This document shows positions 11 to 13,224 of a stretch of 33,674 nt of DNA, in pieces. Every line of letters begins with the position of its first letter. Positions within the stretch are counted from its first letter, which is position 1. Source of the stretch: Akkermansiaceae bacterium (lineage in GTDB: Bacteria > Verrucomicrobiota > Verrucomicrobiia > Verrucomicrobiales > Akkermansiaceae); contig JARWZU010000007.1 of NCBI GenBank assembly GCA_029866215.1, positions 1-33,674 on the forward strand. Reading direction: 5' to 3'. Made by a program: the position numbers and the translations under genes. A model generated the notes under the pieces. The model was given only the letters and a program-made list of their open reading frames with translations. It ran no database searches and was not told where the DNA came from.

Positions 11-3000
11 TCATTTTATAGTGGGATTGGATTTTGGATGATTGTACTCTGGAAAAATTGAGGCATCACAATCCAAAGACATACCAAATGAGGCATGCAA
101 GGTTCCACTCTTCAACTCACGGCTCCGTAGCCAGAGGAAGATGACTGGGGTGACAATCAGTATGTGCAAGAGGCTCGAGATCATACCACCGATCACCGGG
201 GTTGCGAGCGGCTTCATGATTTCGGCACCTTGCCGGTGACTCCACATGATCGGCAGAAGGCTGGCGACAATCGTCGCCACCGTCATCACCTTCGGTCGAA
301 GGCGGAGCCGGGCACCATCTTTCACCGCCTGAACGAGGTCTTCGTAGGTGAAGGCCGCACCTTTCGCCGCAAGGCGGGTTTTCACTGTTTCCTCCAGATA
401 GACGACCATGACCACGCCAGTTTGTACGGCGGTACCGAAGAGGGCGATGTAGCCGACCCAAACCGCACCATTAAAATTATAGCCTAACATTTTTTGAAAA
501 AGCACTCCGCCGCTTAGAGCGAATGGCACAGCAAGCATGACGTGTGCCGCTTCCAGTGCACTATGATAGACGAAGTAAAGCAGGACAAAAATTACCATTA
601 GAACGAGCGGGAAGACAAGGATCATGGTCTTGGTGAAGCGCTTCTGATTCTCAAACTCGCCAGTCATCTTGTAAGTCATACCCTCCATATCGATGGTCTT
701 AAGCTTTCGCTCGATTTCTTCGACAAAGCCGCCGAGATCGCGGTCTTGCACGTTGACCTGGACGTAAGAACGCAGAAGGCCGTTCTCAGAGGCGATTTCG
801 TTAGCTCCGATTTCTCGGGTGATCTTCGCAACCATGCCGAGCGGGATGTAGGGAATTTCATTGCCTTCGTTCGCGGGGACTGCGCTGGCGATCGATGCCG
901 TACCAGCTCCCATGCCGCCGCCCATGCCGCCCGCAGGGGTTGTCGGTGCAGCACCCATGCCGGGCTTCGCTGCAACGAGGACGCGGCCGAGATTCTCGAT
1001 GTCGTCGCGCTCACTGCGCTCCACGCGGATCTGAATGGGGAAGCGCTCGCGGCCTTCGATGGTAGTGCTAACATTTTTTCCACCGATGGAAATTTCGACG
1101 GCGTCTAGCACGTCCTTCGCGCTAAGTCCATAGCGGGCCATCGCTTGGCGATCGACCTTAATGTTGAGATAGGGCTTGCCCTGCACGCGGGAGGCGGAGA
1201 CTCCGGTGGAACCATCGATCTCTTTGACAAGCTTCTCGATCTCGAAGGCCTTGCGCTGGATCTTGTCGAGATTGTCACCATAGATTTTAACTCCAACTTG
1301 GGCACGAATACCAGTGTAGAGCATCAGAATGCGGTTCTCGATGGGTTGGAGAAATGCTGGAACATAGCCGGGAACTTGTTTCATTTTCTCCGTAAGCTCG
1401 GCTTTGAGCTTCTCGATGGTCATGCCTTCGCGCCAATCTGGATTGCGCTTCACTCGGAATTTTCCGTTTGGGATGTATTCAGGTTTGAGCATGATAGTGG
1501 TTTCTAACATTTCCGTTGGTGCAGGGTCGGTGGCTGTTTCGAAGCGACCGAGTTTGCCGGCGACGCTGGCGACCTCTGGAGTCTCACTGATGACCTTGTC
1601 CTGCCATGACATGACACGCTGAATTTCCTTGAGTCCGGTTTTCGGAATCATCACGGGCATGAAGAGCAAGCTGCCTTCGTTGAGCGGTGGCATGAATTCT
1701 TTGCCAAATCCGGTAACGAGATCGGCGGTGCGTTCGTAGCCTCTGTCGCGGATTTGTTTCACGATGCTTCGTGGCAGACCAAAAGCTTCTAACAATGCGA
1801 GGCAGAGGATAAGGAATGCGAGGCTAACCACGGTTTTGCGATGTTCCAACGCCCAGTTGAGGGCGGGCTGGTAAAGCCAGAGTAGCAATTTCATGACGAT
1901 GTTCTTGTCCTCCGAGTGGAAGGGGCCACGCACTAACACGGAGCAGAGTACCGGGACGAGAGTGACGGCGAGCAGCGTGGATCCGATCATCGCGAAGGTC
2001 TTGGTGAAGGCGAGTGGGTGGAATAATTTTCCTTCCTGACCGGTCAGTGCGAACACTGGGACGAAGGCGAGGATGATGATGACCATGGCGAAGAAAATGG
2101 GCCGGCCGACTTGTTTGCAGGCGACGAGGGTGGTTTGCCAGGTTTCCTGTGAGGTGAGTTTTGAGCCTTTTTCGTCCTCCGCCTTTTCGCAATGACGCAA
2201 CACATTCTCGGTCACCACGATGGCGGCGTCCACTAGCACACCGATGGCAATTGCGATGCCTGTTAGCGACATGATGTTGCTGGTGATGTCGAACTCTTTC
2301 ATCAGGAGAAACGAGATCAGAATTGAAATAGGCAGCGGCAGCGTGACAATGAGGATACTGCGGAAGTGCCAGAGGAAAAGAATGTGGGCGAGGGTCACCA
2401 ATATGATTTCCTCGATGAGCGCGTGCTTCAGCGTCTCGATCGTATTATCGATGAGCTCGCTACGATCGTAGAAGGATTTGATTGTGATGCCTGGCGGCAA
2501 GCTAGGGGCGATTTGAGCAATCTTTTCCTTCACCCGCTCGATGACCGCCTTCGCGTTTTCACCCGTTCGCATGACTACGGTGCCACCGACGGCTTCGTGG
2601 CCGTTAAGGTCGAGTGCCCCACGGCGATAGTCGCCGCCAATCTGGACGGTGGCGATGTCTTTTAGATAAATCGGCGTGCCGTCTAAGACTTTTACCGCCA
2701 CCAATTCCAAGTCTTCAGCGCTGGTGACGAGACCGATGCCACGCAGGACGAATTCCGCGCCGTTTTCCTCGACGGTCTTGCCGCCGACGTTGAGGTTGGC
2801 GTTTTGGACCGCGGTCATGACTTCCATCAAGGTCACATTGGCGGCGCGCATCTTGGTCGAGGAAAGTTCGATTTGATACTGCTTCACAAACCCACCGATA
2901 CTCGCGACCTCGGCTACTCCTTGGACACTGGCGAGTTGATAGCGGATATACCAATCCTGTACCGAGCGGAGTTTAGCGAGATCGTAGCCGCCGTTTTCGG

Positions 3001-3451
3001 TCTTCTCAGGATCGACGTGGAGATAGTATTGATAGACCCACCCTAGACCGGATGCGTCGGGGCCGAGTTGTGGCGTGACACCCGCAGGCATCGCACTTTG
3101 AAGGAAATTGAGTCGTTCCAAGATTCGCGTCCGAGCGAAGTAGGTATCGACGCCTTCCTCGAAAATGATGGTGCTCAGCGAGAAACCAAACATCGAGGTG
3201 GCGCGGACTTCCTTCACACCGCTGAGTCCTTGCAAACTGGTAGTCAGCGGATAAGTCACTTGGTCTTCGACTTCCTGCGGGCTGCGACCTGCCCAGTCAG
3301 CATAGACGAGCACTTGATTTTCTGTTAGGTCTGGAATGGCGTCTACTGGTGTTAGAAAAACCGCGCGGACGCCGAGTGCGACGAGCAACAAGGTGGCGCA
3401 GCCGACGATGAACCTATTTTTCAAACTCCATTCGATGAGTTTTTCGATCAT
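11..3451 (-). CDS. cusA: CusA/CzcA-family heavy-metal RND efflux pump, probably Cu(I)/Ag(I)
   Basis: This is the inner-membrane, proton-driven pump of a tripartite heavy-metal efflux system that moves metal from periplasm or cytoplasm out through the adaptor and outer-membrane channel. The protein is 1146 aa, normal for HME-RND pumps. It starts MIEKLIEWSLKNRF, a typical N-terminus for the family. The open frame continues upstream to 3580, but the ATG at 3451 overlaps the adaptor stop codon as ATGA and has a GGAGAGGA-like ribosome site, so I chose it. Methionines occur in EGSLLFMPVM (about residue 595), DPAPTEMLETT (about 645) and NRILMLYTGI (about 709), the places where E. coli CusA carries its Cu(I)/Ag(I)-relaying methionines, which favours monovalent copper/silver over zinc or cobalt. 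An unusual Gly/Met-rich loop lies at about residues 825-865. Last gene of the operon; substrate is inferred. Confidence 0.93.
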   Translation of the reverse strand: MIEKLIEWSLKNRFIVGCATLLLVALGVRAVFLTPVDAIPDLTENQVLVYADWAGRSPQEVEDQVTYPLTTSLQGLSGVKEVRATSMFGFSLSTIIFEEGVDTYFARTRILERLNFLQSAMPAGVTPQLGPDASGLGWVYQYYLHVDPEKTENGGYDLAKLRSVQDWYIRYQLASVQGVAEVASIGGFVKQYQIELSSTKMRAANVTLMEVMTAVQNANLNVGGKTVEENGAEFVLRGIGLVTSAEDLELVAVKVLDGTPIYLKDIATVQIGGDYRRGALDLNGHEAVGGTVVMRTGENAKAVIERVKEKIAQIAPSLPPGITIKSFYDRSELIDNTIETLKHALIEEIILVTLAHILFLWHFRSILIVTLPLPISILISFLLMKEFDITSNIMSLTGIAIAIGVLVDAAIVVTENVLRHCEKAEDEKGSKLTSQETWQTTLVACKQVGRPIFFAMVIIILAFVPVFALTGQEGKLFHPLAFTKTFAMIGSTLLAVTLVPVLCSVLVRGPFHSEDKNIVMKLLLWLYQPALNWALEHRKTVVSLAFLILCLALLEAFGLPRSIVKQIRDRGYERTADLVTGFGKEFMPPLNEGSLLFMPVMIPKTGLKEIQRVMSWQDKVISETPEVASVAGKLGRFETATDPAPTEMLETTIMLKPEYIPNGKFRVKRNPDWREGMTIEKLKAELTEKMKQVPGYVPAFLQPIENRILMLYTGIRAQVGVKIYGDNLDKIQRKAFEIEKLVKEIDGSTGVSASRVQGKPYLNIKVDRQAMARYGLSAKDVLDAVEISIGGKNVSTTIEGRERFPIQIRVERSERDDIENLGRVLVAAKPGMGAAPTTPAGGMGGGMGAGTASIASAVPANEGNEIPYIPLGMVAKITREIGANEIASENGLLRSYVQVNVQDRDLGGFVEEIERKLKTIDMEGMTYKMTGEFENQKRFTKTMILVFPLVLMVIFVLLYFVYHSALEAAHVMLAVPFALSGGVLFQKMLGYNFNGAVWVGYIALFGTAVQTGVVMVVYLEETVKTRLAAKGAAFTYEDLVQAVKDGARLRLRPKVMTVATIVASLLPIMWSHRQGAEIMKPLATPVIGGMISSLLHILIVTPVIFLWLRSRELKSGTLHASFGMSLDCDASIFPEYNHPKSNPTIK

Positions 3452-5136
3452 GGTTTGATTTCCTCTCCGCATTCGAGCATTTCGCTGCCGAAGTAAGGGT
3501 TGGCCATGCTTCTGGCACCGGTCTGGATCCATCGACCTTTTTTGGGAGCACCGGGAACACTTTCGTCGACCATCGGGCACTCGTAGATTTTAAATTCGGG
3601 CGTTTGCCCAACTTTGCGCAAAGGCTCGATTGCAGCAGTGGCGGCCATCGAGAATTTGTGGAAGGCGATGCGGGCGCTCTTCAGATCATCGATGCCGTGG
3701 AAGTGTCCGGCTTTGTCGAGGGCATCGAAAGCGTCGAGATTTTCCGCATTCGGGCGGAGGAGTTTGACGGTCATGCCGATGACTTCCATCGCGGTTTCGC
3801 TGGCGGTGTTGAATTTTGCTAGATCATCGGCAGCGAGAGCGGCGGACATGGCATCAGCGAGATTGATGAAGTCGGCGGTGGATTTTTTTTGTTCGTCATT
3901 GAGGGTAGGGGTTGTTTTCTTAGAGATGAAGGTGGATTCAGTAGTGGGCGACATGAAGGCGCGGTTCATTTCTGCTTGGCCGTCTATGAGGAGATTGCCG
4001 TTGGTGACGACTCTGTCGCCTGCTTGGATTCCTGATAGAATTTCAACGAAAGTGTCTCCGTGGCGGCCAAGTTTCACGGGGGTCTGGGCGTAAGCACCAC
4101 CCTCTTGGGCGAGATAGACGACGGCATCGGGACTGGTTTGGATGATGGCGGATCGCTGGACGGTGAGGACGGCAGGCGAGTCCACTTGGACGGCCCCGTC
4201 GGCATAGAGCTTGTGAAGCAACTCGCGACGACCCTCTATTTTTGGATTGGGCAACTCGACACGCACTTTGGTCGAGCGGGTGGCCTCATCGAAATTTGGG
4301 TCGATGAAGGTGATTTTTCCCTCGAAGAATTTTCCTGGAATGGCTGGGGTGGTGATGGCGACGGACTGGCCGATTTTGATCCATGGTAAATCCTGTTCGT
4401 AGGCGCGGAACATGAACCACATGGTGGAGAAATCAGCGATTTCAAAAAGCTTTTCGCCGGTCGCTACATATTGACCTTCATAGACGGTCTGGCCGACGAC
4501 AGTGCCGCCAATAGGAGCGAGGATTTGAGAGTTGAGCGAGTCGGCTGGCTTGCTGGAAACCGCCTCGATCTGTTCGGGTGATAGACCCATTTGGCGGAGC
4601 CGAAGTGCGGTGTTCGTTTTGAGGTCGCCAGCGAGTTGGCGGTATTCGCGCTCGGCTTGCAGGAGATTCGGGCTGTAAAAGTCGGCGAGAGGTTGGCCGC
4701 TTTCGACTTCGGCACCTATGTAGTTGACGTGGAGTTTGTCCACCCGGCCATCGACGTAGGCAGAGATGATGCGATGGCGGCTGGCGTCATCGTCGATCAT
4801 ACCGGCGACTTGCATGGTGCGAACGAGCGGCTGGATTTTCGCTTCTTGAGTCTGCACATGGAGGACTTGGATTTGGCTTTGGGTGAGTACCACCGTGCTG
4901 CCGCCACTAATGGCATCGAAGCCTTTTTCACCTGCATAGACTGGGGTAAGCTCCATCCCACAAATCGTGCATCGGCCTGGTTTGTCGCTCTTGATCCATG
5001 GGTGCATGGCGCTCTGATAGTACATGGGTTTCTGTTGCGAGGGAGCCTCAGGATCATGATAGTCGAAACGCAATGCCCACCAAGTGGCTAAAGCTGCTAG
5101 AAATACAGTGATTAGATAAGACGAGAATTTTTTCAT
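3448..5136 (-). CDS. cusB: CusB-type periplasmic adaptor with heavy-metal-binding and DUF3347 domains
   Basis: Membrane-fusion (adaptor) subunit of the RND efflux system, 562 aa, linking the pump to the outer-membrane channel. An N-terminal anchor or uncleaved signal (residues 1-21) is followed by a heavy-metal-binding module at about 39-67 (AMHP then CTICGMELTPVY), typical of CusB-like adaptors. The barrel-sandwich/lipoyl and beta-barrel region follows at about 100-400. The C-terminal 140 residues form a DUF3347-like domain ending in a CPM...NPYFGSEMLECGE motif that carries further Cys and Met residues. The protein therefore has candidate metal-binding modules at both ends, suggesting direct hand-over of copper to the pump. 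The gene overlaps both neighbours by 4 bp (ATGA), so translation is probably coupled with the channel and pump genes. Confidence 0.92.
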   Translation of the reverse strand: MKKFSSYLITVFLAALATWWALRFDYHDPEAPSQQKPMYYQSAMHPWIKSDKPGRCTICGMELTPVYAGEKGFDAISGGSTVVLTQSQIQVLHVQTQEAKIQPLVRTMQVAGMIDDDASRHRIISAYVDGRVDKLHVNYIGAEVESGQPLADFYSPNLLQAEREYRQLAGDLKTNTALRLRQMGLSPEQIEAVSSKPADSLNSQILAPIGGTVVGQTVYEGQYVATGEKLFEIADFSTMWFMFRAYEQDLPWIKIGQSVAITTPAIPGKFFEGKITFIDPNFDEATRSTKVRVELPNPKIEGRRELLHKLYADGAVQVDSPAVLTVQRSAIIQTSPDAVVYLAQEGGAYAQTPVKLGRHGDTFVEILSGIQAGDRVVTNGNLLIDGQAEMNRAFMSPTTESTFISKKTTPTLNDEQKKSTADFINLADAMSAALAADDLAKFNTASETAMEVIGMTVKLLRPNAENLDAFDALDKAGHFHGIDDLKSARIAFHKFSMAATAAIEPLRKVGQTPEFKIYECPMVDESVPGAPKKGRWIQTGARSMANPYFGSEMLECGEEIKP

Positions 5137-6377
5137 GGACGTTCTGGAACGAGTTTATTGAGTTCTTCGAGCGCGGCCCATTGCATCGCAATGAAACGTC
5201 GGCTTTCAAGCTGGGTGGCGAGCAAGTTTTTGCGTGAGACTAACAGGTCCGAGAGAGAACCCTTGGAGCTGATCCATCGCGCTTCTTCCGCTTGGGATGC
5301 TTGGAGTTCGCGTTGGTAGATTTCGCCAGTGTAAGCCCGTGCTTGAGCATTGGCATTTGCGACTTCGGCCACAGCTGCTAGAACCGCAGATGCCACTGTC
5401 TTGCGGGTCGCCTCCATTTCCATCGCCGCTGACTTTTCGCGGAGCCGAGAGGCCTCCACGGTTGCGGCTGAGGCATTGCGATTAAAATAGGGAAGGCTCA
5501 TTTTAAGCCCCAATGTGGCACTGCGGAAATCACCGCCTGAGTAGATCTCTGCATCGACCGCGACCGAGAGCTGCGGCTGGCGTTCAAGATCGGCAATGCG
5601 TGATTCCGCATTGGCTACGGAAACCATTTCCGCTGCCGAGCGGACCTTGAGGTTTGCACGAGTGATGCGGGCGATTTCCGCACGGGCGATCGGAACTGGC
5701 GGTGGGCTGGTTGAGAGCCTCAGGGCTGGCCATGGTGACTCTAATAAACGACCGAGGTCCAGATTGAGTCGCTGCGCCACGCTCTTACGAGTCCGCTGGG
5801 CGGCATCAAGCACTTGCTTTTCGCGAGCGAGTTCGGCTTCGAGACGAAGTGCGTTGATGCTATTTCCATCTGGGTCGAGGGCGGACTGCTTGGCATCACC
5901 CACCATCGTCACCAGCCATGCGATGAGTTCCGATTGGATTGCGATCGATTCATCGGTCAACGCCAGCTCGATCGCATCACGCGCGGCCGCAGCCCCGATT
6001 TCTATGCGCGAGTTTTGCCAATTGTCGAACTCGGCACGCTGGGCCGCCGAGGCTTTCGCTTCCTTCGCCGCAAAAAGTCCGCGCTTGGGAAGTGCTTGCT
6101 CCCACCCAATGCGGATGTCGCCATCGCTATGGCGTTTTTCAGATTCCGCAGCCATCAGGGCGAGCCCCATCGTTGGGTCATCCCACAGGCGAACTGCACG
6201 CACATCGCTGCTCGCAGCTGATGCACGGAGTGATGCGGCAATAGCAGTTGGATGATGAGCTACGGCTTCAGCTCGTAGTGTAGTGAGAAATGATCCATCA
6301 AGCAGTCGAGATTCCGATGCTTGCAGTATAGTGTTGGCGATAGTGAGTCCGATCGATAGGTAAATGAGCAATTTCAT
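5133..6377 (-). CDS. TolC/CusC-family outer-membrane efflux channel
   Basis: Predicted outer-membrane factor of the metal efflux pump, 414 aa. It begins with a signal peptide (MKLLIYLSIGLTIANTILQA). The rest is rich in Ala, Glu and Arg and consists of long amphipathic helices arranged as two similar halves, as in the OEP/TolC family; the AAAVEASRLREKSAA-type stretches are helical-barrel segments. The length is close to that of CusC/CzcC proteins. Function rests mainly on position: it directly precedes the adaptor gene and overlaps it by 4 bp. I see no Cys placed as a lipobox at the signal cleavage site, so unlike E. coli CusC it may not be lipidated. The metal specificity of the channel cannot be read from the sequence. 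Confidence 0.85.
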   Translation of the reverse strand: MKLLIYLSIGLTIANTILQASESRLLDGSFLTTLRAEAVAHHPTAIAASLRASAASSDVRAVRLWDDPTMGLALMAAESEKRHSDGDIRIGWEQALPKRGLFAAKEAKASAAQRAEFDNWQNSRIEIGAAAARDAIELALTDESIAIQSELIAWLVTMVGDAKQSALDPDGNSINALRLEAELAREKQVLDAAQRTRKSVAQRLNLDLGRLLESPWPALRLSTSPPPVPIARAEIARITRANLKVRSAAEMVSVANAESRIADLERQPQLSVAVDAEIYSGGDFRSATLGLKMSLPYFNRNASAATVEASRLREKSAAMEMEATRKTVASAVLAAVAEVANANAQARAYTGEIYQRELQASQAEEARWISSKGSLSDLLVSRKNLLATQLESRRFIAMQWAALEELNKLVPERP

Positions 6378-6479
6378 AAGTCATAGGAGTGATTGGAGAG
6401 ATTTCCCAAACGCCCGAAACTTGAGGTCTGCTTGGCAGCTCAAAACAAACGGGCACAATGCACCTGCAAGGGTGCAGAC

Positions 6480-6848
6480 TCAGATGACAAAACAACAGAA
6501 CGCCACGGAAAGTAGCACACCCGTGAATCCTGCAAGGGGCTGGATCTGAGTGGCGAAAAACGGCGCCACTTGAGTGTGGACCGAGGCATCAAAACCCCGC
6601 TCGAGACGCATCGCTACTGGGGCAACCCAGCCCTTAAAGCCGACAGATTCAGGAATCAATGGCGCTGGTTTCGGAGCCTGCTCGTTTTTTGCCTCACATG
6701 GGCAAGACTTAAGATCCTTGCAGCAACTCATCGCTTGGCGATCTCCAGCACATGGTTCTGGTGCAGTGGCTGCTTGGCAAGACGACACTTGGGAGAGCTG
6801 GATCACCAGCCCCACCATCAATGCGAGAAATGCTCTTAAGCCCATCAT
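6480..6848 (-). CDS. Small Cys-rich secreted or lipoprotein-like protein at head of cus operon
   Basis: I do not recognise a named family. From the ATG at 6848 the protein is 122 aa; the ATG at 6845 is equally possible, and a TTG at 6905 would add 19 residues before the signal sequence. It begins with a hydrophobic signal (MMGLRAFLALMVGLVIQ) ending in VSSC, which fits a lipobox at Cys24. Five more cysteines follow within about 17 residues (Cys33, a CC pair at 42-43, and Cys48 and Cys50 in SCPCEAK). A hydrophobic C-terminus contains another CC pair. It lies 102 bp upstream of the outer-membrane channel gene on the same strand. The Cys cluster and position suggest a periplasmic copper-binding or sensing role, but that is inference. 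Expression of the ORF is likely rather than certain. Confidence 0.65.
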   Translation of the reverse strand: MMGLRAFLALMVGLVIQLSQVSSCQAATAPEPCAGDRQAMSCCKDLKSCPCEAKNEQAPKPAPLIPESVGFKGWVAPVAMRLERGFDASVHTQVAPFFATQIQPLAGFTGVLLSVAFCCFVI

Positions 6849-10600: not shown

Positions 10601-11581
10601 TCAAGGCTTCGCCTGCTTCATCAACCTTTCGGCCAAGCCCTTGAGCTCCTCGACCGGGATGGCAAAACTCTCTGAGCGATTGGCCCGTGCGATGTTCATT
10701 CCAATGCAGCGGCCATCCAAATCCAGCAACGGCCCGCCCTGCACCGCCCGACTGCCGAGGATGTCGTGCTGAAGGGCTCGTGGAAATCCGCTTCGCCGTG
10801 GTGAAAAATCGCCGCTCATCTGGTCATTGCGATCCATCTGGTCCGTAAACAACTCCGCGCGTGCGGCCAATCGAACATCAACCGATACCTCCTCGCCCTT
10901 TCGGCGAAGCAGTAAATGAACAAGGTTGCCTGCCTTGCCATCCTTGAGAGCATCATTCAGTTCAGTCACTTTTTCGATCTTCTTCCCATCGATCGAGAGG
11001 ATCACATCGTCTTTCTGCAAGCCAGCCTCCTCCGCGCCGCTCTTCTGCTGCACGGCTTCGACCTGCGGCACTTTGGATTTCACCTTGAGAATCACCCCGA
11101 GCGCCGCACCTCCAGAAGCAGGGATTTCACGGGTTTTGGCACTCACGATGCCGGCCAGCAGCCGCCTCGTCGTCCGACTCGTCGCCCCATTCGCCACGAC
11201 CCAGGTCCCCTGCAGCACGTCGCTCGTGGGCGCGTAATCGACTGGAATCAAATCATGTGACTCGATCTTCAAAAGCGCCACATCCCAAACCAAGTCCTCC
11301 GCCAGCACCTTCACCTCATGGTAGTTGGTTTGATTTACCGTCACCGCCAAGCCGCCCGATTTCGGCAGCTCACTCGCCTTGGTTAGAATGTATCCATCGG
11401 CGGAAATCACCACGCCGTATCCAGTTTCTTTTCGTCCATCGAGAATGACCGCGCTCGACTGCTGCAGCACTTGGCGCTGTGCCTCAAAAGCAGCCACTAC
11501 TGCACTTCCGGTAGTCCGGTAGCTCGACTCCAAGCTTTGCTGACCCTTCACCGTGCCCAGCAACCCAGCAAAGACAATCAT
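10601..11581 (-). CDS. Catalytically dead S1C/HtrA-like PDZ protein (pseudoprotease)
   Basis: Secreted or anchored protein of 326 aa related to HtrA-type serine proteases. I start it at the ATG at 11581, ten bases after the previous stop: it has an AGGA ribosome site and gives a signal-like N-terminus (MIVFAGLLGTVKG). The protease fold is visible in GYGVVISADGYILTKASELP (55-73) and WDVALLKIE (99-107). The His position of the ILTxxHV motif is missing, while Asp100 is kept. A PDZ domain follows at about 155-238 (GAEEAGLQKDDVILSIDGKK). The GNSGGPL box appears only after the PDZ, as AVQGGPLLDLDG (279-290), with Gln in place of the catalytic Ser. It probably binds peptides or partners without cleaving them. 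Second gene after an active homologue of the same length. Confidence 0.82.
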   Translation of the reverse strand: MIVFAGLLGTVKGQQSLESSYRTTGSAVVAAFEAQRQVLQQSSAVILDGRKETGYGVVISADGYILTKASELPKSGGLAVTVNQTNYHEVKVLAEDLVWDVALLKIESHDLIPVDYAPTSDVLQGTWVVANGATSRTTRRLLAGIVSAKTREIPASGGAALGVILKVKSKVPQVEAVQQKSGAEEAGLQKDDVILSIDGKKIEKVTELNDALKDGKAGNLVHLLLRRKGEEVSVDVRLAARAELFTDQMDRNDQMSGDFSPRRSGFPRALQHDILGSRAVQGGPLLDLDGRCIGMNIARANRSESFAIPVEELKGLAERLMKQAKP

Positions 11582-11591
11582 CCAAATCCTG

Positions 11592-12572
11592 TTAGCGTTC
11601 ACCGAGGTTGAAGGTAAAAGTTTTCGGTTTTCCACCGCGTTCCATTTCAAGAATAACTTCATCGCCCGCCGCCATCTCCTTCAGCAAATCTTGCATCTGC
11701 TCACGGGTTTCAAGGCTCACATGGTTCAACTTTAACAGCACATCACGCTCACGAATTCCTGCTGCCTCCGCAGGACTTCCATGACCGACCTTGGTCACAC
11801 TCAAGCCACCCTTGGGCCGTGCATCCGTGGCAAGGCCAAGAAAGCCATTCCCTTTCACCGGCTTCTCCGCATACGGGCCCTCGCCGATGAACTCCGCGGC
11901 CAACATTTTATCCCAGTGATCGATGAACACCGCGGTCGGCACATGCATGTTCACCTGCATCTGCGCCCCGACCCTGGAGTGGATCGCAATTAGATTTCCT
12001 GCTAAATCAAATAACGGCCCGCCCGAGTCCCCCCCGATCACCATGCAGTCTGATTGAAAGGTCGAGTCGGCGATGCGGACCAAACGACCCAGCCGAACCA
12101 CCGATCCTCGTTCATGGTCAAATCCCCCTGAATGCCCCAGCGCAAACACCCAGTCACCAAGCTGCGTACTTGCGTCGCGATCCATCTCCACAAAGGGATA
12201 GGTTCCCTTTTCCGTAATTCGCACCATGGCCGCATCCCTGTCCGCGACCAAGCCCAGCGTCTCGGCCTTGAGCCGAGTCCCATCCTCAAGCACCACCGTG
12301 ACCTTCTGCTTCACCCCGGTTGCGACGTGCGCAGCCGTCAAAACCAGCCCATCGGGCGAAACGATCACCCCGCTACCCGACCCACCTTTAATCTCAATGC
12401 AGACCGTAGCCGCGCGCGCTTTTGGCAATGACGCACGCACCGCGTTCTGGATCATCTCAAGATCTTGCCGGTTTTCAGGCGCCTTGTGGTCATTCACCAC
12501 AAGGCGCTCATTTACCGCCATTCCCGAACTCCCCAACAACAGCAGCAGTGAAAAAATCCGTGTGTATCTCAT
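11592..12572 (-). CDS. S1C-family (HtrA/DegP-like) serine protease with C-terminal PDZ domain
   Basis: Predicted periplasmic trypsin-like protease of 326 aa. The open frame runs up to 12791, but the ATG at 12572 gives a clean signal peptide (MRYTRIFSLLLLLGSSGMA), so I use it. The triad is complete: His82 in LTAAHVATG, Asp113 in DRDAAMVRI, and Ser183 in GGDSGGPLFD. One PDZ domain follows at about 242-325 (GSPAEAAGIRERDVLLKLN). The architecture matches DegS-like or short HtrA proteins with one PDZ, and a role in envelope protein quality control is inferred. It lies 46 bp after the methyltransferase gene and 10 bp before the pseudoprotease; the latter junction suggests coupled expression of an active and an inactive partner. 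Confidence 0.9.
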   Translation of the reverse strand: MRYTRIFSLLLLLGSSGMAVNERLVVNDHKAPENRQDLEMIQNAVRASLPKARAATVCIEIKGGSGSGVIVSPDGLVLTAAHVATGVKQKVTVVLEDGTRLKAETLGLVADRDAAMVRITEKGTYPFVEMDRDASTQLGDWVFALGHSGGFDHERGSVVRLGRLVRIADSTFQSDCMVIGGDSGGPLFDLAGNLIAIHSRVGAQMQVNMHVPTAVFIDHWDKMLAAEFIGEGPYAEKPVKGNGFLGLATDARPKGGLSVTKVGHGSPAEAAGIRERDVLLKLNHVSLETREQMQDLLKEMAAGDEVILEMERGGKPKTFTFNLGER

Positions 12573-12618: not shown

Positions 12619-13224
12619 TCATGGCTGCGCCCGCTTGCGAAATAGCCCGATCCATTCCCTGCCCTCACGTCCTGCGTATGCCGCGCGAGGAACCCAGCCA
12701 TCGATCCGATCAAACCACGGAGTAAACCACCCGTCCAACTCATCGACCGTCGTGGGAAATGGTGGTCCACATGCCTCCTCGCCTGGATCAAAAGGTGTCA
12801 GGAAAAATACCCCTGCAAGTAACCCACCATCGGTTAGGCAGCCTGCTGCAGCCTCGGCATACTTCGGCCGTTTGCTCGGATCGATTGCACAAAAACACGT
12901 GTGCTCCCACATCGCGGAGAATTTCCTCTCACCCGACCACTCGGGGTCGAGAAAATCGCCCAACTCGTAGGCTTCGTCCGATGCTTGCGGCCATTTCCTC
13001 GCGAGCTCAATCGCGGTTGGCGCGAGATCCACGCCCACGATGGGAATGCCGAGCCTGGTCAGCGCCCGCACGTCGTGCCCCAGCCCGCAGCCGGGCACCA
13101 AGACTGGGCCCATCCCCCATGCGTCCGCTTCGAGCCGATCGAGCAATTCCAGCAGCGGCGGTGCTGCTCGCCCTTTTTCCCACGGCATGTCGGCACTCTG
13201 GTAGCGCATTTCCCAATCGGTCAT
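12619..13224 (-). CDS. SAM-dependent methyltransferase, TPMT (thiopurine methyltransferase) family
   Basis: Class I Rossmann-fold methyltransferase of 201 aa. The N-terminus (WEMRYQSADMPWEKGRAAPPL) is typical of the TPMT-like family, where the Trp-Glu-x-x-Tyr and P-W motifs open the protein. The SAM-binding loop VLVPGCGLGHDVRAL and acidic end of strand 2 (IVGVDLAPTAIELAR) lie at about 41-75, followed by WEHTCFCAID near 106-115, a family motif. Bacterial members act on small thiol, selenium or tellurium compounds; the substrate here cannot be told. First gene of a run of three on the minus strand, with a 171-bp gap to the divergent nuclease gene in which I see no clear promoter. Confidence 0.88.
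   Translation of the reverse strand: MTDWEMRYQSADMPWEKGRAAPPLLELLDRLEADAWGMGPVLVPGCGLGHDVRALTRLGIPIVGVDLAPTAIELARKWPQASDEAYELGDFLDPEWSGERKFSAMWEHTCFCAIDPSKRPKYAEAAAGCLTDGGLLAGVFFLTPFDPGEEACGPPFPTTVDELDGWFTPWFDRIDGWVPRAAYAGREGREWIGLFRKRAQP

Follow-up and report, generated by a model that had tools for sequence, protein, structure and literature searches.

A predicted HtrA-type protease and its pseudoprotease neighbour as a probable two-subunit module in Verrucomicrobiota

We analysed two adjacent HtrA-like genes of an Akkermansiaceae bacterium and conclude that they probably encode a two-subunit module, in which a pseudoprotease (the product of gene I) regulates or feeds an active protease (the product of gene A). 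The window, the whole 33,674-nt stretch of contig JARWZU010000007.1 (assembly GCA_029866215.1) analysed here, carries both open reading frames on the minus strand, where they had originally been predicted. That I is a working partner subunit of A is very probable. The original prediction had regarded a regulatory or substrate-presenting role as plausible, and pairing, natural fusions and a two-chain model now support it; whether I activates, inhibits or presents substrate we infer below.

Results

Structure of the two genes

Gene A (P0002; 11592..12572, minus strand) encodes 326 aa, with a hydrophobic, leader-like N-terminus (judged by eye), a Trypsin_2 domain (Pfam, E 7.8e-25) and a C-terminal PDZ domain (Pfam PDZ_2, residues 254-322; 11607..11813, minus strand). 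As the original prediction had it, the protein retains the catalytic residues His82 (12327..12329), Asp113 (12234..12236) and Ser183 within GGDSGGPLF (12024..12026), all on the minus strand and each placed by the sequence and its relatives. The His/Asp/Ser triad was retained in every partner protease, both in the whole-genome set (86/86) and in the named-locus set (79/79), and a PDZ domain was present in 13 of the 15 A members scanned; the two others, L056 and L077, are PDZ-less by alignment. The features that mark the HtrA/Deg (S1C) family, a triad in a trypsin-like domain and a C-terminal PDZ, are both found in A, and its score against TIGR02037 (Do family serine endopeptidase) was 140.6 bits, below the cut-off of 416.2. 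A is a divergent HtrA-type protease, its activity predicted from the triad.

The downstream gene most likely starts at a GTG at position 11602, which gives a protein of 333 aa (10601..11602, minus strand) and an overlap of 11 nt with the end of the protease gene (11592..11602, minus strand). The two proteins had earlier been described as equal in length, 326 aa each, with their genes 10 bp apart; that description used an ATG (10601-11581, minus strand; P0001, whose residue numbers we keep here) and proved to be an artefact of start-codon choice. The ATG at 11581 is not kept, being Val or Ile in L095 and L096, relatives that are 94-95% identical, and the match in length is fortuitous, a product of this non-conserved codon. 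A GTG that lies in frame with I, 10 nt ahead of the final base of A's stop codon, was found at 44 of 78 loci, among them each of the 29 loci L095-L123. The 11-nt overlap is as expected for translational coupling.

Pfam placed a Trypsin_2 match at residues 54-151 of I and a PDZ_2 match at 160-238 (10868..11104, minus strand), followed by the GGPL box. The AF2 model of P0001, built with 78 relatives, had a pLDDT of 83.8 and a pTM of 0.73, and VIA-align superposed it on the protease domain of AlgW with Z 23.7 and rmsd 2.3, matching 185 residues between positions 31 and 325. We relied on VIA-align; whole-chain TM-scores from Foldseek against the PDB were 0.37 or less by query. Since the fold aligned across 31-325, the PDZ domain is an insert in a complete trypsin-like fold, which upholds the original placement of the PDZ between the Asp strand and the GGPL box, and from the Pfam match it would sit within the second barrel. 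Both domains were found in 28/28 diverse I homologues scanned. It is in their PDZ domains that A and I are most similar (31% identity, E 2e-07). Gly162 of I, in the PDZ loop that we take to be the one holding the ligand carboxylate in HtrA PDZ domains, was invariant in 28/28 and 79/79 aligned rows, as was Arg302 of the NIARANR motif (10676..10678, minus strand) in 28/28 and 82/82 aligned homologues.

Loss of the catalytic site in I

Only the Asp of the triad remains in I, in agreement with the original prediction. By alignment, Ser70 (11372..11374) occupies the position of the catalytic His, Asp100 (11282..11284) is retained, and Gln281 in AVQGGPLLD (10739..10741) stands where the nucleophilic Ser was lost, all on the minus strand. 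The loss is general. In the 87 I copies from whole genomes, His was absent from all 87 (S83 E2 A1 T1) and Ser from 85 (M22 C17 A17 V15 T6 I6 S2 Q1 L1); the two copies with Ser at the aligned nucleophile position, L093 and L220, are both without His. The named set had Ser at this position in 0/82 rows and His in 0/78 readable rows, the nucleophile position being V42 M17 T7 I6 Q4 E2 C2 A2. This free variation does not bear out the emphasis that had been placed on a Ser-to-Gln change, and we reject a special role for Gln281 on the rarity of Gln at the site (4/82 in the named set, 1/87 in whole genomes).

Lys68 (11378..11380, minus strand) lies two positions N-terminal to the site of the lost His and varies in step with Asp100. 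Position 100 was Asp in 85/87 rows and Asn in 2, and the two positions vary only jointly: K,D in 85 rows, with S,N in one of the remaining two and L,N in the other. Thus the only rows without Lys68 (L091 and L094) are the only rows without Asp100, a coincidence with a chance of about 1 in 3,700 if the positions were independent and kinship is ignored. The equivalent of Lys68 in the partner proteases was Ala in 86/86. Joint loss of the two residues suggests a salt bridge; a buried Lys68-Asp100 salt bridge probably replaces the old His-Asp pair in I and, if correct, would account for the retention of Asp100. I is, judged from these sequence features, an HtrA-derived pseudoprotease: the trypsin-like fold of the HtrA/Deg (S1C) family is found in it, the catalytic triad and C-terminal PDZ are absent, and its score against TIGR02037 was 124.2 bits (cut-off 416.2).

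Conservation of the pair

We compared 80 of 104 confirmed named matches, all with Verrucomicrobia-type names; two of the 80 start at a contig end, and in 78/78 testable loci A lay directly upstream of I on the same strand, in a search whose narrower alignment (A3) favours the window's own kind. Among 383 Verrucomicrobiota genomes, I was found in 44 (E 1e-30 or better), which represent 15 genera and, as members of three families of one phylum, are not independent. A partner-type A match of at least 194 bits was present in the same 44 genomes, and the best match in an I-less genome was 172.5 bits, which is the level of ordinary HtrA. Relatives that encode one gene alone, the outcome that had been named as counting against a partnership, were therefore not seen in these sets. 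These searches scored at most 5-6 candidates per genome, such that distant members may be missed, and the named-locus and whole-genome sets overlap, their counts being not to be summed.

In whole genomes, 85/87 I copies had their own A adjacent or in the same open reading frame. The exceptions were the copy in L090, which is not beside its partner, and the copy at 1269-2939 of L228, which lacks an intact A partner of its own. The latter (G395:C73:9900-17000) is a protein of 557 aa that adjoins an A-I fusion; its C-terminal half is the inactive homologue, and its N-terminal ~270 residues were unmatched by the A profile. In genome G234, I is on contig C46 and A on C38, both far from contig ends, so here the two genes have been co-kept without linkage. 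Neither gene was found at E 1e-30 in ten genomes of genus g2 (G005, G051, G069, G105, G137, G184, G193, G196, G286 and G331; 2.2-2.7 Mb), and 13 other g2 genomes retain two A/I pairs. A plasmid search with P0001 returned 24 records; coverage of the query stayed below 80% in every one and was 31-38% in the 20 that were listed.

The window's own genome (3.03 Mb, 97.4% complete) holds a second tandem A/I pair, on contig C35, and a further HtrA-like gene on C36. The I tree falls into two main groups, each represented by a copy in most genomes of the window's family; the window's own genome holds both kinds of pair. One I-tree group, of 38 copies, is likewise set apart by a single branch in the A tree, with low support (55), and distances in the two trees correlate (r 0.85). 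This pattern suggests that whole pairs were duplicated and then diverged together; linkage alone could give matched trees. Between the window and L095, dN/dS was 0.081 in I and 0.107 in A; I is under purifying selection.

Neighbouring genes indicated no pathway for the window's pair, across the 80 named loci and the window. Upstream of A on the same strand (12619-13224) is a methyltransferase-like gene (thiopurine-methyltransferase type, by eye), with similar open reading frames in 34 of the 81 sequences (80 named loci and the window); an rpoA-like gene was seen in 29 and an rplQ-like gene in 27. The second, alpha pair is transcribed divergently from a PBP1-type penicillin-binding protein gene (by eye) in L008 (own genome C35:38000-49000), the arrangement covering 2058-4583 and 4455-6707. 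Of 26 other alpha loci, 18 had a similar gene (43-69% identity) next to A on the other strand, and several of the others were short of upstream sequence; the alpha pair may have a role in the cell wall.

Natural fusions and the distribution of PDZ domains

In 12 of the 87 copies, I was fused with A in one open reading frame. Ten of these fusions are in the order A-I (L055, L058, L082, L083, L084, L087, L094, L221, L226 and L228) and two in the order I-A (L093 and L233). Mapped on the I tree, fusion must have been gained or lost at least 5 times, a count that is approximate because the tree was built quickly, leaves 19/84 inner branches open and includes several long rows of fused proteins. The L233 fusion (G299:C204:37200-42200) has an in-frame stop at 1451-1453, before the last part of the PDZ of its A half, which reflects either truncation or an assembly error.

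Genome G277 encodes two further single chains with A-like and I-like halves, L236 (548 aa; 2335-3978, minus strand) and L237 (935 aa; 1614-4418, plus strand), which fell under the E 1e-30 cut and stand outside the 87 copies. In the I half of each, Lys and Asp are retained, and His and Ser are missing. L237 ends in a SASA domain (sialic acid-specific acetylesterase type). A PDZ scan of both chains found no match in either half. The dead protease core, and not the PDZ, is therefore the constant part, and the case for the internal PDZ as an essential sensing part is weakened. The converse arrangement occurs in genus g2, where one pair has a PDZ-less A: its match to the A profile ends at position 211-231 of 319 in 13/13 genomes, and the module's only PDZ there is consequently the one inside I.

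A two-chain structural model

Both genes are in one frame in five named loci. Taking one of these (L148), we translated it through the stop codon (stop as Gly) and aligned the resulting A+I chain with 47 other rows, 4 of which span both halves. The single-chain AF2 model of 648 residues had a pLDDT of 87.0 and a pTM of 0.82, with pLDDT below 50 at residues 184-188 and in the linker (310-333). By our own estimate, two equal halves without defined placement would give a pTM of ~0.5, and thus A and I appear to be placed together with confidence, judged from the model scores of one pair in an alignment in which only 5 rows (query included) span both halves. VIA-align of this model covered chiefly the A half and is uninformative about the interface. 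Structure prediction, which had been proposed as a check, has in this way returned a full trypsin-like fold for I and a confident joint model. Physical binding of A to I is well supported by computation, through the natural fusions and the two-chain model; binding in the cell we infer from these.

Discussion

The account that best fits these observations is that A is the catalytic subunit of a module that is probably exported to the periplasm. I would be translated beside A by way of the gene overlap and would bind A in the manner of a further subunit, its dead protease core serving as the constant partner. The internal PDZ of I, where present, probably recognises a peptide or a substrate tail, and this recognition would allow I to regulate A or feed it. 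We consider an activator or adaptor more likely than an inhibitor, because of the fusions and the lineages with a PDZ-less A.

An inhibitory I, which occupies the substrate groove or a subunit interface of A until its PDZ is filled or I is degraded, would be equally expected to show the pairing, the fusions and the joint model, and co-translation by gene overlap fits it as well. However, permanent fusion in several lineages and in both orders would better suit a positive partner, as would pairs that combine a PDZ-less A with a PDZ-bearing I, and we regard inhibition as unlikely. It is rather improbable, too, that I acts outside any A complex, as a separate chaperone or peptide-binding scaffold co-transcribed for envelope quality control. 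HtrA proteins are described as serving protein quality control (PMC3640471), and G234 keeps both genes on different contigs; the fusions, which occur in either order, and the model, which places A and I together with confidence, argue instead for a complex.

Two further readings concern I itself. The near-constancy of Lys68 (85/87) and Ser70 (83/87) might point to an enzyme with a changed active site, for example one using these two residues in the old His strand. Yet Lys68 varies only with Asp100 and reads as part of a structural salt bridge, and the nucleophile site varies freely. Our search for a replacement triad found no conserved His (best column 50/87 rows), and catalytic residues supplied elsewhere in the chain, which had been raised as a possible objection, were thus not seen as conserved features; we find a surviving enzyme very hard to credit. 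Least credible of all is a decaying duplicate of A. Loss of the catalytic residues is what decay would produce, but a dN/dS of ~0.08, conserved motifs of its own and the presence of I in all 44 genomes with a strong A match all speak against it; a pseudogene reading is likewise contradicted by the dN/dS and the conservation.

Returning to I as a positive partner subunit, a more specific form of the proposal is possible, and we offer it tentatively, as something we would not yet expect to hold in full. The module would be an obligate two-component HtrA protease of Verrucomicrobiales, in which I, with its Lys-Asp bridge and internal PDZ, is a fixed subunit of the oligomer and switches A on, in most lineages through a peptide signal read by the PDZ. 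Where A is without a PDZ, sensing would be wholly outsourced to I. The module would have been duplicated as a unit and fused more than once.

With only two genes, the A/I system is simple and could lend itself to expression and structure determination. It would offer a direct test of the control that a dead copy exerts on a live protease, and of the part played by a PDZ domain that is built into a protease fold instead of attached at its end. Among the papers listed in literature searches on HtrA pseudoproteases, inserted PDZ domains and HtrA proteins of Akkermansiaceae or Verrucomicrobia, we found no report of the A/I pair or of its layout.

Inactive homologues serve as structural or regulatory subunits of active proteases in mixed rings such as ClpP/ClpR and FtsH/FtsHi, which differ from A/I in that they have unrelated protease folds and are ATP-dependent. 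Within the HtrA/Deg (S1C) family, A and I share the trypsin-like fold and PDZ of DegP, DegQ, DegS and AlgW, with the triad and C-terminal PDZ in A and a fold that aligns to AlgW in I. HtrA proteins are described with PDZ domains at the C-terminal end (PMC3640471), whereas I carries its PDZ inside the fold and has lost catalysis. Arabidopsis Deg5/Deg8, as presented in the same source, are two HtrA relatives in the thylakoid lumen, one of them described as without a PDZ or detected protease activity; Deg5 has kept its catalytic Ser and His and has no PDZ, in contrast to I, which has lost His and Ser and has an internal PDZ (PMC3640471).

The closest precedent is MamE/MamO (PMC4794232), like A/I a retained pairing of an active trypsin-like HtrA relative with a degenerate one. 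The account of that system describes MamO as needed for MamE-dependent proteolysis with its catalytic triad dispensable, reports that inactive partners arose repeatedly in magnetotactic bacteria, and argues that the active/inactive pairing there reflects selective pressure (PMC4794232). The likeness extends to the keeping together of an intact and a degenerate trypsin-like protein and does not amount to membership: I scored 26.1 bits as MamO (NF040961) and A 63.5 bits as MamE (NF040960), against a cut-off of 800 for each. MamO is described with a C-terminal TauE domain and metal binding (PMC4794232), whereas I has a PDZ inside its protease fold and gave no TauE match, and A/I differ from MamE/MamO in belonging to another phylum, with gene overlap and fusions. 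If our reading is true, A/I would be a further, separate case of an active/inactive HtrA pair, in another phylum, with natural fusions and a different domain layout.
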